Shown here piece after piece: positions 11,243 to 54,576 of a stretch of DNA of 64,000 bases; the stretch's first letter is position 1; every line of letters starts with the position of its first letter. The notes under the pieces were generated by a model. The model was not told where the DNA came from. It made no database searches and saw nothing but the letters and a program-made list of their open reading frames with translations. The DNA is from Blastocatellia bacterium. GTDB lineage: Bacteria; Acidobacteriota; Blastocatellia; Pyrinomonadales; Pyrinomonadaceae. The position numbers were made by a program, and so were the translations under genes. The stretch lies in contig PMSM01000014.1 of the NCBI GenBank assembly GCA_003168335.1, positions 248,001 to 312,000 of the forward strand, given 5' to 3'.

Positions 11243-12550
11243 CTATCTGGCGCTGCGGGCGCGGTAACCCGGCCGAGCGCGAATGGCGATGTCCTTGCGC
11301 GAGGTCTTAACCTGGATCTTGCGATAAGCGCCGTCATGATCTCGATTGATGGGGTAGTAACCCAGCAGGTACTGAGTCCGCATCTCGTCTGCAATCGCCG
11401 CGAAGGCTTGCGGCAGAGCGCCTAATGTGTCCGCGCGATAGACTTGCCCGCCGGATCTGTCGGCGATCGTACCCAGATAACTGTCAGCCATAAAGTACAA
11501 GTTATCCAGCATCGCACTAAGGCTGTCATTCGTTTTCCGCTCCCTAATCGTGCCTGGATTGGGATTCGTCCGCATTGACGGTTGCGGCCCTGCATCGGGG
11601 AATGGATCTGTCGGAGAGGTTTGACGTGGATTGCCGACTCCACCACGACCGAAGATCACTGACGGTGGAGGAATGATGGGCAGCGGCCCTCTTTGTCTCG
11701 TTGGGACCGGAGAGGGATCGTCGCTCGGAAACGTCGTCGGGGTCGTGCCCGACTGAGGTTGGCGGATCACGCTGCTCGTAGGCAGCGGGCCGCCGTTTTG
11801 TTCCGCCTCCTGCTGTCTGGCGATCTGTTCAGTAAAGGCCCGCGTGTCGAAGCGAATCGGGTAAACGATTACGCCCGACTCGTCGAGATCGTGGACCGTA
11901 CTCTCAAAGGTCGAGCTGACGCTGTGCCAGTCGACGCCGTCTGTGAACAGGACGATGGCCTTTCGCTGCTGAATTGGCCGCAGCGCGTCGAATGCGGTTT
12001 GCACCGCATCGTACACCCGGGTTCCCTTGCCCGTGCGCGTTTGTTCGATGGCGCGGCCCAGGACCGATTTGTCGCTGGTGAATTCGTTCAAGTCCCTGAC
12101 CTCATCATCGAAGGAAATGATCTTCACCCGATCGCGCGGACCCAACTGGCTGAGAAAAGCAATCGCCGCTTGTTGAATTTGAACCAACCTCTCCCGGGTG
12201 CTGTCGCTCGTGTCGAGCATTAGCACTACATAGAACGGTGCGTTTACCGTGGCCAGAAACGCGATCTCTTGCGGCACGCCATCCTCTGACAGTTTGAATT
12301 CTTCTTTGCGCAAGTCGGTAATGTAGTGGCCGATCCGCGAACTTGCGATCACCGGAACCGTGACCAGATTGGTATCAATCTTGATCGTTTCGAGATCGTC
12401 TTGAGCAGGTTCAGGCAAAACGTCCCGGGGATTCGTGGCGGCGGGTTTCTGTTCACCCGGGCGCTGCGCATCTCTTGGCGACTGCGCCAACGTAATTGAA
12501 ACAGGTAAGACCAGGATGAAAGCGACGAATGCCCAAGCCAGGAGTTTCAT
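11243..12550 (-). CDS. Secreted VWFA-related domain protein (acidobacterial type)
   Basis: A 435-residue exported protein. The chosen start at 12550 gives a classical signal peptide (KLLAWAFVAFILVLPVSI, cleavage after LAQ); the longer frame to 12748 only reads through repeat DNA. A von Willebrand A domain spans about residues 70-270, with MIDAS residues in LMLDTSDST, the threonine in GKGTRVYDAV and the aspartate in LFTDGVD. A proline/serine-rich linker follows, then a C-terminal stretch MRTQYLLGYYPINRDHDGAY typical of the acidobacterial VWFA-related family. These proteins are abundant in Acidobacteriota; their role is unknown. Confidence 0.88.
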   Translation of the reverse strand: MKLLAWAFVAFILVLPVSITLAQSPRDAQRPGEQKPAATNPRDVLPEPAQDDLETIKIDTNLVTVPVIASSRIGHYITDLRKEEFKLSEDGVPQEIAFLATVNAPFYVVLMLDTSDSTRERLVQIQQAAIAFLSQLGPRDRVKIISFDDEVRDLNEFTSDKSVLGRAIEQTRTGKGTRVYDAVQTAFDALRPIQQRKAIVLFTDGVDWHSVSSTFESTVHDLDESGVIVYPIRFDTRAFTEQIARQQEAEQNGGPLPTSSVIRQPQSGTTPTTFPSDDPSPVPTRQRGPLPIIPPPSVIFGRGGVGNPRQTSPTDPFPDAGPQPSMRTNPNPGTIRERKTNDSLSAMLDNLYFMADSYLGTIADRSGGQVYRADTLGALPQAFAAIADEMRTQYLLGYYPINRDHDGAYRKIQVKTSRKDIAIRARPGYRARSAR

Positions 12551-12668
12551 GACGGCTCCATTGAGACGAGGCTGGTGCCGTTCGATTGGATCGACTCGGC
12601 AGGTATTGGGGAGAACCGGGGACATTCTAAGCTCGTTGGCCGACGGATGCCAACTCGCCGCGCCGTTT

Positions 12669-12863
12669 GGTACTGGTTCAGTTTCAGTCCCACCAATGAA
12701 GATGACGCTGGGAGCGCGGACGTCTCGTCCGCACAGCGTGCGAAGCACGCTCCCTTTTTCGAGCTTCTGGCAGCAATAACTGTTCGCGCTCCGCGCTCAA
12801 TGCGGACGAGACGTCCGCGCTCCCAGCAGAAGATCGACCTTTGGCTCAAACTGAACCAGTACC
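12669..12863. mobile_element. 195-bp TIR element B, copy 1
   Basis: A 195-bp non-coding element with perfect 16-bp terminal inverted repeats (GGTACTGGTTCAGTTT and its complement). It is flanked by near-identical 8-bp direct repeats, CGCCGTTT at 12661-12668 and CGCCGTTA at 12864-12871. Inside is a second inverted repeat with 26-nt arms starting CTGGGAGCGCGGACGT (family R1). The copy at 53643-53837 has the same length and, by direct reading, a single base difference. There is no transposase, so it is a MITE-like passenger. Confidence 0.85.
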
Positions 12864-12871
12864 CGCCGTTA

Positions 12872-13327
12872 GATAGTGGCATTGCACTCCCGCGATGCCC
12901 GCCGGCTTTACTGAACATCTTGTGAGATTGAGGACATTGTGGAGCTTCTGGATTGGCCTATAATCAGAACATGAAGCGGCTGGCATTGTCCTTACTTGGT
13001 GGCTTTGCTGTTCCGTTTGGCTATTACATCGCGCTTGGTCTACTTTTGCTTTGGACTAAGAACTGGGCTCTGGTTTCACGTTTGGGCTATCCTGTGAGAT
13101 GGCCGATACCGATTCTCTTCCACCTTTTTCATTTTGGCTCATTCCCCCTGAGACGCGGAGACCGAACATTTCTTATTCTGTTAGTCTTCATTTGCAACGC
13201 AGTTCTTTACTCGATCCCGATCTATTTTCTCTTGTGGGGATTCTCAATACGAAGACGCAAGGCTGTCCGCGGTGACCTGCCGCCCGATCCACCGCAATTT
13301 GTCTAACATTGAAAATGACCCACTACC
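12872..13327. mobile_element. TIR element D carrying a membrane-protein gene
   Basis: A 456-bp segment directly after the 8-bp repeat that ends element B. Its left end reads GATAGTGGCATT and its right end, complemented, GGTAGTGGGTCATT, close to the ends of elements A, B and C. It is flanked by CGCCGTTA (12864-12871) and GGCCGTTA (13328-13335). It contains the complete small membrane-protein gene at 12971-13306. The ends are less perfect than those of the other elements, so the boundary is less sure. Confidence 0.6.
12971..13306 (+). CDS. Small membrane protein inside a TIR element
   Basis: A 111-residue protein with about three hydrophobic segments: residues 5-30, 45-60 and 70-95, ending in a basic, proline-rich tail (IRRRKAVRGDLPPDPPQFV). 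The ATG at 12971 places the first hydrophobic segment at the N terminus. No family was recognised. The gene fills most of element D, between terminal repeats shared with other elements, so it may travel as a passenger. It has no visible relation to the VWFA or DedA genes beside it. Confidence 0.6.
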   Translation: MKRLALSLLGGFAVPFGYYIALGLLLLWTKNWALVSRLGYPVRWPIPILFHLFHFGSFPLRRGDRTFLILLVFICNAVLYSIPIYFLLWGFSIRRRKAVRGDLPPDPPQFV

Positions 13328-13371
13328 GGCCGTTAGATTGCTCCCCGGGAATCCTGTAAAGTTGCAGGCGA

Positions 13372-13983
13372 ATGAATTTTCTCCACAATTCGCTCCAACT
13401 GATCGAGCAGTACATGCTCACGTATGGCTACTGGGCCGTGTTCTTTGGCGTGATGCTCGAGAATGCGGGAGTGCCGGTGCCGGGTGAAACAATTCTGCTG
13501 ATCGCCGGATACTTTGCCGCGACGGGTCACTTTCACCTTGCCCTTGTCATGCTGATCGCGGCGACCGGCGCAGTTATTGGCGACAATATCGGTTTTGCCA
13601 TCGGTCATCATTTTGGTCGTAGTGTGATTTTGCGTGTCGGCCGATTCTTTTTTCTGACGCCGAAGCGATTCGAACACATGGAGAATTACTTTGCGAGTCA
13701 CGGCAATAAGACAATTTTGGTCGCCCGTTTCATCACCGGCCTGCGCGTGGTGGCCGCGCTGCTCGCCGGAGCATCGAAAATGCCCTGGCGCCTCTTCTTC
13801 GCCTATAACGTGGCCGGCGCCGTCCTGTGGTCCGTTGTGATCACAACCCTTGGATACCTGTTTGGCGCGAGCCTCCCGCTGCTTATCAAATGGGTGGGAC
13901 GCAGCGGAACAGTTTTGCTGATCAGCGCGATCGTTCTTGGCGTGGTTGTTTGGCGCGTTCGGAAACATCGAAAGAGCGAGTAA
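13372..13983 (+). CDS. DedA / VTT-domain membrane protein
   Basis: A 203-residue inner-membrane protein of the DedA (SNARE-associated/VTT) family, some members of which flip undecaprenyl phosphate or lipids. Family marks are FFGVMLENAGVPVPGETILL near the N terminus, the glycine-rich IAATGAVIGDNIGFAIGHHF, RFITGLRVVAALLAGASKMP, and a closing transmembrane segment before a basic tail. The conserved E and R residues of the re-entrant loops are present in ENAGVPVPGE and ARFITGLR. It begins 36 bp after the 8-bp repeat that ends element D. Confidence 0.92.
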   Translation: MNFLHNSLQLIEQYMLTYGYWAVFFGVMLENAGVPVPGETILLIAGYFAATGHFHLALVMLIAATGAVIGDNIGFAIGHHFGRSVILRVGRFFFLTPKRFEHMENYFASHGNKTILVARFITGLRVVAALLAGASKMPWRLFFAYNVAGAVLWSVVITTLGYLFGASLPLLIKWVGRSGTVLLISAIVLGVVVWRVRKHRKSE

Positions 13984-13986
13984 ACG

Positions 13987-14012
13987 CTGGGAGCGCGGAC
14001 GTCCCGTCTGCA
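13987..14012. repeat. Solo half of repeat family R1
   Basis: CTGGGAGCGCGGACGTCCCG directly after the DedA stop matches one arm of the R1 inverted repeat found inside element B and at 33268-33373, with one difference within the 26-nt arm. The second arm is absent here. Confidence 0.7.
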
Positions 14013-52062: not shown

Positions 52063-52845
52063 ATGAAAAAAGTTTCAAGACGACGGTTGATGAACATGAT
52101 GGCAGCGGGAGGCGCCGGGGTTGCGCTGACGACGTTGGTTAGAACCGAGCAGGTCAAAGCAGATGGAAACCGAGGGATGACAACCGAGGAGCAGGCGGCA
52201 ACTATCACTCCGGCGGCGCGGGCATTCAGTGGCCAACACTCACCGAAGCCGTTGCCGTTCGATCCTGCGAAGCTCAAGGGCATCTCAGAAAAGCTGATCA
52301 AGTCGCACTGGGAAAACAATTATGGCGGCGCCGTCAAAGCTCTCAACGCTGTCGAGCAAAGACTTGGCGCGATGCTTCAGGACAAGGACCTGCCACCGTA
52401 CGTTTACGGCGACCTCAAGCGCGAAGAGTTGATCCGCACTGGGTCGGTGGTGCTGCACGACCACTACTTCGCCAACCTTGGCGGTGATGGCAAAGCCAGC
52501 GGCAAGGCGCTCGATCTGATCAAGCAATGGTTTGGGAGTTACGAGCAGTGGGAAGCGGAATTCAAGAAGACGGCTAACGCCCTGGGAGGCGGGTCAGGGT
52601 GGACAATCCTTTCCTACAATTTGCACACAGCCGAAGTTCACAACTACTGGGCGTGGGATCACATGCACAATGCGCCGCTGGGCTATCCGCTGTTGGTGCT
52701 GGATATGTATGAGCATGCTTATCACATGGACTACGGCGCAGCCGCAGCCAAATACGTCGATGCTTTCATGCAGAACGTCAATTGGGATGAAGTCAACCGC
52801 CGAGTGGAAGAGATGCGCCCGCGCACAGCCCTCAGATCAAGCTGA
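52063..52845 (+). CDS. Tat-exported Fe/Mn superoxide dismutase
   Basis: A 260-residue enzyme converting superoxide to oxygen and peroxide. A twin-arginine signal is seen at the N terminus ([20 protein letters not shown]), so it is exported folded. The SOD domain begins near residue 65 with [20 protein letters not shown]; other ligand and active-site regions are [21 protein letters not shown], and [13 protein letters not shown], where the family has DxWEHAY. AGEN-type fragments are not clear, so Fe or Mn cannot be decided. ChrC of chromate operons is an iron superoxide dismutase, which matches this gene order. Confidence 0.9.
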
Positions 52846-52977
52846 CTCGCCGATTTCGCTTTCTGGGTAACGGAGCACTCCCACTTTCTGGGTAGTGGGT
52901 CAGTTTGAAAAAGTCACAGGTTTTTCGCTATGTCACGCGACCCGCCGCAAATCTCGGCGGTGTCCTAATCTAGCGGC

Positions 52978-53049
52978 GTTTAGAGTACCAACTTTGGTTG
53001 GGTTTCTTTCTCGCTTAATAAAAGCCCGACTAAAGTCGGTACTCTGAAC
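52978..53049. repeat. Hairpin repeat family R2, copy 3, inside element A
   Basis: GTTTAGAGTACCAACTTTGG and CCCGACTAAAGTCGGTACTC are nearly complementary arms of a hairpin. It is the most complete of three copies (also at 16538 and 41101). Confidence 0.75.
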
Positions 53050-53071
53050 ACCGTTTATCAAAGTAAGACAC

Positions 53072-53470
53072 CCCCAAATCTCATTCGATAACTCGCAAAT
53101 ACCGTTCGATCCGTGATGCGTGTTCGTCGGCACGCGACGAATATCATTGATCACCCGGAAAATATCGTCTGGTATTCGTCAAATTCCAACTGACATTTCT
53201 GACGTGTCGTGCGACACGTGCCGTAAACTAACTAGTACGCCACAGATATCGTTCGACATGCACCACAGGTCAAACAACACGTGGCATATATCGTTCGACA
53301 TGCGCCGCGGGTCAAACAACACGTGGCATATATCGTTCGACATGCACCACAGGTCAAACAACACGTGGCATATATCGTTCGACATGCGCCGCAGGTCAGA
53401 CGACACGCGGCACATATCGTCTGACATACGTGCCGTACCAACTGATATTTTCAAAATGTCAGGCTGAAAT
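53072..53470. repeat. 21-bp-period tandem array with a 42-bp higher-order core
   Basis: About 19 consecutive 21-bp units can be aligned. The core, 53246-53413, holds four 42-bp units (start ATATCGTTCGACATG) alternating between two variants, which suggests an older 84-bp duplication. Outer units are diverged. Because 21 is a multiple of three, both strands stay open over most of the array and would read as heptapeptide repeats (for example WHISFDM and HHRSNNT on plus, RRMSNDI and CHVLFDL on minus). No ribosome binding site supports translation on either strand. Confidence 0.85.
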
Positions 53471-53642
53471 TGTCCGACTTCCATTCATTCCGGGTTCTTC
53501 TGGCCTGTTATGCCTCACATGATGCCAGAGATAGCCCTTGGTGGATAAGACACCTTCGGTTGGGCGCTGATGCAAAGATAATCCCCTGAATCACGCTCAA
53601 GATGCGCTGGTTACAACCAAACTGACCCACTACCACTTTCTG

Positions 53643-53837
53643 GGTACTGGTTCAGTTTCAGTCCCACCAATGAAGATGACGCTGGGAGCGCGGACGTCCC
53701 GTCCGCACAGCGTGCGAAGCACGCTCCCTTTTTCGAGCTTCTGGCAGCAATAACTGTTCGCGCTCCGCGCTCAATGCGGACGAGACGTCCGCGCTCCCAG
53801 CAGAAGATCGACCTTTGGCTCAAACTGAACCAGTACC
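53643..53837. mobile_element. 195-bp TIR element B, copy 2
   Basis: Same length as, and one base different from, the copy at 12669-12863 (T to C in the left R1 arm near 53699). The 16-bp ends are identical to the first copy. Flanking 8-mers are ACTTTCTG (53635-53642) and ACTCTCTG (53838-53845), unlike the CGCCGTTT/A pair of the first copy. It lies directly between elements A and C. Confidence 0.88.
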
Positions 53838-54019
53838 ACTCTCTGGGTAGTGGGGTAACGTTGTGGTCATGGATTTCGTAGCCCGCAAATCGGGAGGAGT
53901 GTTCATTGTGGGTTTCTGCCCCGGTCATGCTGACTCTGACACAGAGCCGCAAGCCAGTCACAACCAACCGCAATCTAGTTGCAACCGCAGGCGCAGTCAG
54001 AAGGGCCACTGTGGTGAAC

Positions 54020-54283
54020 ATGACAATAGAAGACATTAAGTTAAGGGTACAGACAACGCTTGACGAACTCAGTAGCGAACACTTGATTCCTTTTAAGTTG
54101 ACTGCCCACAGAGTCAACACGGACGGGCCAGGAAAATACGTCGTTCCTTTTTATGACAGCAGAATCCATTCGTTTGGGTTCTCGTGGATAGATGGAGGAT
54201 CATCATTCAAAGAAGTCGTCCGGGCTGCGGTATTGGATCGCGTAAAAAGTATGGATGGCCCTCCGAATGGCCGGAGCGCGTAA
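54020..54283 (+). CDS. Small orphan protein inside TIR element C
   Basis: An 87-residue protein: helix (TIEDIKLRVQTTLDELSSEH), then strands with KYVVPFYDSRIHSFGFSWID and a final helix (SFKEVVRAAVLDRVKSM). The fold looks compact and real, but no family was recognised. The ATG at 54020 is preferred for its natural N terminus; a TTG at 53906 with GGGAGGAG six bases upstream would add 38 residues of random appearance. The gene lies wholly inside element C. It may be a passenger gene of that element. Confidence 0.5.
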   Translation: MTIEDIKLRVQTTLDELSSEHLIPFKLTAHRVNTDGPGKYVVPFYDSRIHSFGFSWIDGGSSFKEVVRAAVLDRVKSMDGPPNGRSA

Positions 54284-54307
54284 CTCTCACACCGCAAGTA
54301 AGCCCCC

Positions 54308-54451
54308 CCGGCGACCATACGTGCTTTTGAAATAGACAGAGACCAGGACGGGTTCGCGATTGTCCACATGACGAACGGCAAATCCCATTACATAGCCGAG
54401 AAGGACGCCCTCGCCTTGCGAACCCTGCTCCACGCCTCAAAAGCTAATTAA
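54308..54451 (+). other. Open stretch, possible gene remnant in element C
   Basis: A frame with no good start reads FEIDRDQDGFAIVHMTNGKS and ends LALRTLLHASKAN before TAA at 54449. The only ATG (54368) would give 27 residues. It looks like the C-terminal end of a former gene. No family recognised. Confidence 0.3.
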
Positions 54452-54576
54452 CCATATCCACACATTTACCCCACTACCACTTTCTGGGAGAGCTTTTCAC
54501 CTCAGCATAGTTCTAGTATCATAGCGTCCGCCCGCCCGGCTTGCTCCCTTTAGTGCGCGGAGAGATTCAAATTCTA

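Follow-up and report, generated by a model that had tools for sequence, protein, structure and literature searches.

The closest precedent for the arrangement described here is the inverted-repeat targeting of IS30 and IS911, which likewise makes use of a site next to a resident relative's inverted repeat. IS30 inserts into hot spots or adjacent to its own inverted repeats, and this targeting creates a new reactive IR-IR junction (PMC9333248). ISH2-type MITEs (PMC3119063) and mobile insertion cassettes consist of transposon ends around a gene that does not encode a transposase. Among open-licence papers, we found no report of insertions in tandem or side by side that have a repeat in common, and a search of the same literature for IS1-family MITEs in Acidobacteria gave papers on IS6 instead. 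The target repeats of IS1 are similar in length to the 8–9 bp repeats of the elements considered below, and E. coli IS1 typically has two overlapping frames joined by frameshifting. We analyzed a stretch of 64,000 nucleotides (C1:248001-312000, hereafter the window) from a 5.16-Mb genome assembled in 14 contigs and 96.6% complete, in which two tandem arrays of unlike elements are bordered and divided by near-identical 8-mers. The best explanation of these arrays, and in our assessment a likely one, is that non-autonomous IS1-like elements inserted one after another, guided by the end of an element already in place.

The first array (12661-13335) sits between a minus-strand gene for a VWA-domain protein and a VTT-domain gene (13372-13983). 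It opens with the 8-mer CGCCGTTT (12661-12668), which was read directly and represents the first copy of the presumed target repeat, followed by the MITE that we call element B (12669-12863; 195 bp, ends GGTACTGGTTCAGTTT and AAACTGAACCAGTACC). A second copy, CGCCGTTA (12864-12871), separates B from element D (12872-13327, plus strand; 456 bp, ends GATAGTGG... and ...AAAATGACCCACTACC), a cassette lacking a transposase, and the third, GGCCGTTA (13328-13335), closes the array. The initial annotation had B abutting D with 8-mers at all three junctions, and both direct reading of the sequence and computed coordinates, including those of the middle and right copies, confirm this. Its statement that a single 8-mer is common to all junctions holds as near-identity and not as strict identity, as the pairwise mismatches among CGCCGTTT, CGCCGTTA and GGCCGTTA amount to 1, 1 and 2 positions. 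Agreement at a minimum of seven of the eight positions had a frequency of 0.0011 among random 8-mer pairs drawn from 12001-14000.

In the sister array at 52.9–54.5 kb, the 8-mer ACTTTCTG stands before element A (52883-52890), at the A/B junction (53635-53642) and after element C (54479-54486), and ACTCTCTG occupies the B/C junction (53838-53845). Between them lie A (52891-53634; 744 bp, perfect 16-bp ends), another 195-bp copy of B (53643-53837) and C (53846-54478, plus strand), which has GGTAGTGGGGTAA-type ends and holds an ORF of 87 codons (54020-54283, stop included) without a match in Pfam or NCBIfam. As had been proposed, the repeated 8-mer of the first array is not that of the second, the two sequences being completely different. 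Within each array, inner spacers and outer repeats differ by no more than 1–2 positions. Partial copies of A occur at the ends of contigs C7 (97% identity) and C9 (96% identity). The middle of A (53223-53467) is filled by CACGTGGCATATATCGTTCGACATGC-type repeats, and the offset alignments with an A copy suggest that their number varies. Directly to the left of the sister array, at 52858-52882, we observed GCTTTCTG and, next to it, a 17-bp piece, GGTAACGGAGCACTCCC, with an end-like start, which may be the remnant or scar of a fourth element. A search of the six congeneric genomes with the gene further left (52063-52845) found nothing at E 1e-40.

Element B is a genuine mobile element, a MITE. 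Its eight copies in the genome, a count that leaves out a B-type partial end at C9:694196, are near-identical (11 of 195 columns variable), carry no transposase gene and terminate in perfect inverted ends of 16 bp, and the hairpin-like B strand folds much more stably than shuffled versions of itself (z -10.2). An 8-bp flanking repeat, identical at seven or all eight positions, accompanies six of the eight copies, and its sequence varies between sites. The other two copies (L006 and L008) have no flanking repeat, and a search within 1.5 kb of them did not find the missing 8-mer beside a family end. These site-specific repeats, together with the 8–9 bp repeats of relatives in other genomes, support the target-site duplication suggested in the initial annotation. 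Since TGGTCGAG, ATTCAGTC and CAAAATTC at different B sites are unlike one another, the 8-mer is a property of the site and not of the element. Neither an autonomous partner nor any transposase with B-type ends that could serve as mobilizer was found in this genome, and the partner may be missing because the assembly comprises 14 contigs and is 96.6% complete. Inside B, a core of the form GGGAGCGCGGACG...CGTCCGC (12706-12738 and 12798-12826) resembles dozens of shorter matches across the genome at 74–94% identity; the dispersed palindromic repeat that forms this core may have been picked up by B.

A local 8-mer or DNA context might also have been favored and struck repeatedly without any help from a resident element, an account that we consider unlikely but not negligible. 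It would suit the intergenic position of both window arrays on one contig, and a local structural preference is conceivable as few loci are known, but B occurs singly at four sites besides the window arrays, each time with an 8-mer of its own, and the two arrays repeat entirely different 8-mers. Moreover, the 19 target 8-mers, which are sites that we selected from the search results, have little in common, with a maximum of 0.53 bit at one position. Sequence preference alone is therefore a weaker, though conceivable, account.

The window elements have relatives well beyond this genome. B and D probably belong to one IS1-like transposon family that extends across the phylum and is marked by ends of the form GGTAGTGGGTCAGTTTGA or its variants. 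The GGTASTGGGTCAGTTT end was present in 33 of the 195 genomes of our phylum sample, and its reversed control gave none among the matches listed. Family members range from 33 bp to 4.0 kb in length, and their target repeats in other genomes measure 8 bp, sometimes 9 bp. The 33-bp element, in G177 (L079, 501-533), consists of two 16-bp ends with one base between them and a perfect repeat, GATCTGTT, on both sides, and is of about the minimal size for a two-ended unit. Long members in G122 (3970 bp), G168 (3083 bp) and G187 (2753 bp) combine perfect 8-bp repeats with a transposase-type ORF. G168 and G187 each encode the transposase in a single ORF (288 and 276 aa, respectively), and both proteins match PF03400 (DDE_Tnp_IS1) above its cut-off and reach 61.7 and 52.2 bits against NCBIfam transpos_IS1, for which the cut-off is 100; the ORF of G122 seems to shift frame near its end. 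Passenger genes in the G168 and G187 elements match DUF4258, Gp49/HTH toxin-antitoxin-like proteins and DUF3467.

The genome studied here encodes three IS1-like transposases that share only 42–43% identity with the G168 transposase, and searches for family ends and for inverted repeats recovered no paired family ends near them. The ends and the 8-bp repeat initially suggested IS1595, which we rejected because PF12762 found nothing in this genome at E 0.001. A 1395-bp element 10.7 kb to the right of the window (L099:1464-2858; C1:322704-324098) has C-type ends, GRTAGTGGGGTAAGG, with CGGATTCG on each side, and is another cargo-bearing unit, its cargo being a 301-aa beta-helix gene. It also holds a transposase remnant that scores 21.4 bits against PF03400 (cut-off 24.1) and whose C-terminal part is 52% identical to the G168 transposase. 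Through this combination, the C-type ends are tied to the same IS1-like type of transposase.

Element D encloses a complete gene for a predicted membrane protein, in agreement with the initial annotation. The ORF (12971-13306 with the stop codon, plus strand) has 111 codons from the ATG at 12971, the list of predicted ORFs giving an upstream TTG start and 117 aa, and its product has hydrophobic stretches at residues ~4–26 and ~66–84 and no match in Pfam or NCBIfam. The right end of D agrees with the family consensus at 15 of 16 positions, and the locus 8-mer comes directly after it. The left end begins with GATAGTGG and then diverges, matching 7 of the first 8 consensus positions and 8 of 16 overall. 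With so poor a match, the left boundary is set by the 8-mer and by the exact adjacency of D to B, and the left end is a weak one that appears decayed or doubtful.

A relative of the D gene with 49% identity lies in unrelated surroundings in G081, a genome of the same family as the window's. The DNA alignment extends from 12948 to exactly 13327, and D's right boundary is independently supported because the homology stops at precisely this base amid different surroundings. In G081, the relative is flanked by a glycosidase-like gene, presumably NagZ-like, and by a hydrolase gene of the beta-lactamase family (PF00144); the counterparts of these two neighbors lie a few bases apart in our genome, with the D gene absent between them. 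The final bases of the D homology, at its right end, form the start of the G081 hydrolase (L113, 1833-1851), and among the matches listed from other genomes none begins at residue 1 of this protein. A decayed element end may thus have become a new protein start. At E 0.01, the D gene had matches, mostly weak, in 13 of the 294 genomes searched, a count that includes our own. A contig scan for D relatives returned one locus, JAMQPI010000062.1, from a Pyrinomonadaceae MAG, with the same match coordinates as those of G081.

These data also bear on whether D is mobile at all or merely a segment with an ordinary gene next to B whose ends happen to resemble those of the family, which we judge improbable. 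A left end at 8/16 is what such a segment might show, and no family ends were detected beside the gene at L114-L116, the weaker D-gene matches inspected at the DNA level. Nor do the differences from the G081 relative indicate a selected gene, as they number 41, 35 and 42 at the three codon positions over 109 codons and give no sign of selection. However, the right end matches at 15/16 positions with the locus 8-mer next to it, the G081 homology ends exactly there, and D is absent from four congeners that share the flanking genes.

The initial annotation had itself named, as an observation against its reading, syntenic relatives in which the D gene is always present and the proposed ends are no insertion boundaries, and the congeners instead lack the gene. 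G001, G003, G004 and G005 carry an ortholog of the VTT gene (80–84% identity) beside the VWA gene, and both B and D are absent. The distance between matched ends is 248–393 bp in these four genomes vs 942–981 bp in the window. They are shorter by 556–703 bp, and B, D and two 8-mers together measure 667 bp. The two other congeners are uninformative, G006 having only a distant VTT homolog (36%) and G002 being 79% complete with no VTT match. None of the six congeners had a match to the D gene. Alignment of the joined congener flanks did not recover an intact pre-insertion site carrying one CGCCGTTA, since the intergenic DNA is too diverged for the 8-mer to be resolved, and neither B without D nor D without B was seen at this locus among the congeners compared.

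The insertion of new elements exactly beside old ones, as first proposed, is supported by the spacing of the ends. We searched the 33 family-bearing genomes with the end-pair pattern CCASTAYC-N(0-30)-GRTASTGG and a reversed control. The pattern gave 18 sites over the 33 genomes and the control 31; because the control outnumbers the pattern over all spacings, the spacing is informative and the number is not. This genome has three outward-facing end pairs, all within the window and all at a spacing of 8, with the other 30 spacings empty and no match to the reversed control. If 14 independent insertions are assumed, chance alone would give ~0.00004 adjacent pairs. Such close pairs are rare, and spacing 8 is absent from the 32 other family-bearing genomes. 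Seven sites fall in G034, five of them at spacing 9, and the other ten sites of the search have spacings of 4, 6, 7, 14, 21, 23, 24, 28, 29 and 29. Exact GGTAGTGG ends occurred at 11 sites in 7 of 393 genomes, with the control matching more often, at spacings of 8 (G330 and G367), 9 (five sites in G034) and elsewhere 1, 7, 14 and 24. With stricter ends, one site was found in each of 3 of 396 genomes, at spacings of 8, 8 and 9 and with no control match, and all three were already known from the exact search.

Serial insertion would account for these arrays as follows. The first element, probably D in view of its decayed left end, would have entered the VWA–VTT intergenic region, with duplication of a CGCCGTTA-like 8-mer. 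B would have been placed later by a transposase acting in trans, with the 8 bp abutting the resident end as its target, and this second duplication would yield the order 8-mer, B, 8-mer, D, 8-mer. The same process could have operated at 52.9–54.5 kb with A, B and C, and the D gene would be a passenger. In an ordinary insertion, the 8 bp between the staggered cuts are duplicated; if one cut fell precisely where the resident end meets its flank and the second 8 bp farther out, the same 8-mer would be copied again. The incoming ends could be positioned by a transposase that occupies the resident end. We infer the order of insertion, and the choice of site by a transposase engaged with a resident end, from the spacing and the spacer sequences.

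Tandems in other genomes differ in their spacers. In G330, from another family of the phylum, GCCACGGA lies between two elements and is repeated after the second, the left end of the first lying beyond the contig, and in G367 the spacer is not repeated in the visible outer flanks. Three tandem MITEs in G034 (L109, 1410-1724) are bordered on both sides by the 9-mer CGCTGGCTG and have CGCCCTCAG and TGCTCTTGG as inner spacers, a pattern that fits a ready-made trimer moved as a unit. Transfer of this kind thus seems to occur in the family, but for the window we consider it very unlikely that an array was assembled elsewhere and arrived as one unit via its outer ends, because donor spacers would then be expected inside and new repeats outside, and the window arrays have matching ones. 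At a second G034 locus (L103), TGCCCTCAG is repeated, as would be expected of an array that grew in situ. Slippage during replication, or unequal recombination, between repeats would suit same-element arrays with equal spacers such as this one; as the source of the window tandems it is extremely improbable and in effect refuted, since B and D, like A, B and C, are unlike each other and could not arise by duplication of a single element.

Serial insertion beside resident ends can tentatively be carried further, to a possible general habit of the lineage. This branch of IS1-like elements might prefer the 8 bp beside resident ends of its own family and stack unlike gene cassettes, with the shared 8-mer as its signature. 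If so, a DDE transposase would gather cargo into ordered arrays in an integron-like manner, and the family would build gene-cassette arrays without an integrase, each step being a normal target duplication. The spacers provide a test based on sequence only, as spacers equal to the outer repeats point to serial insertion and spacers unlike them to transfer of a unit. Both spacer patterns occur in the end family.

Compared with IS1, the likeness lies in the PF03400 match of the G168 and G187 transposases and in the 8–9 bp target repeats, and the differences lie in the single uninterrupted ORF of each transposase, in NCBIfam scores below the cut-off, and in elements of 2.8–3.1 kb that carry passenger genes. 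Unlike the mobile insertion cassettes and ISH2-type MITEs, D has a different end family and host and stands in tandem with a common target repeat. With respect to IS30, the window arrays differ in joining unlike elements, in having a full 8-bp target duplication between them and in their association with an IS1-like transposase. The MITE, the cargo cassette and the IS1-like family are each of known kinds, and the unusual part is the proposed end-directed stacking with a common target repeat.
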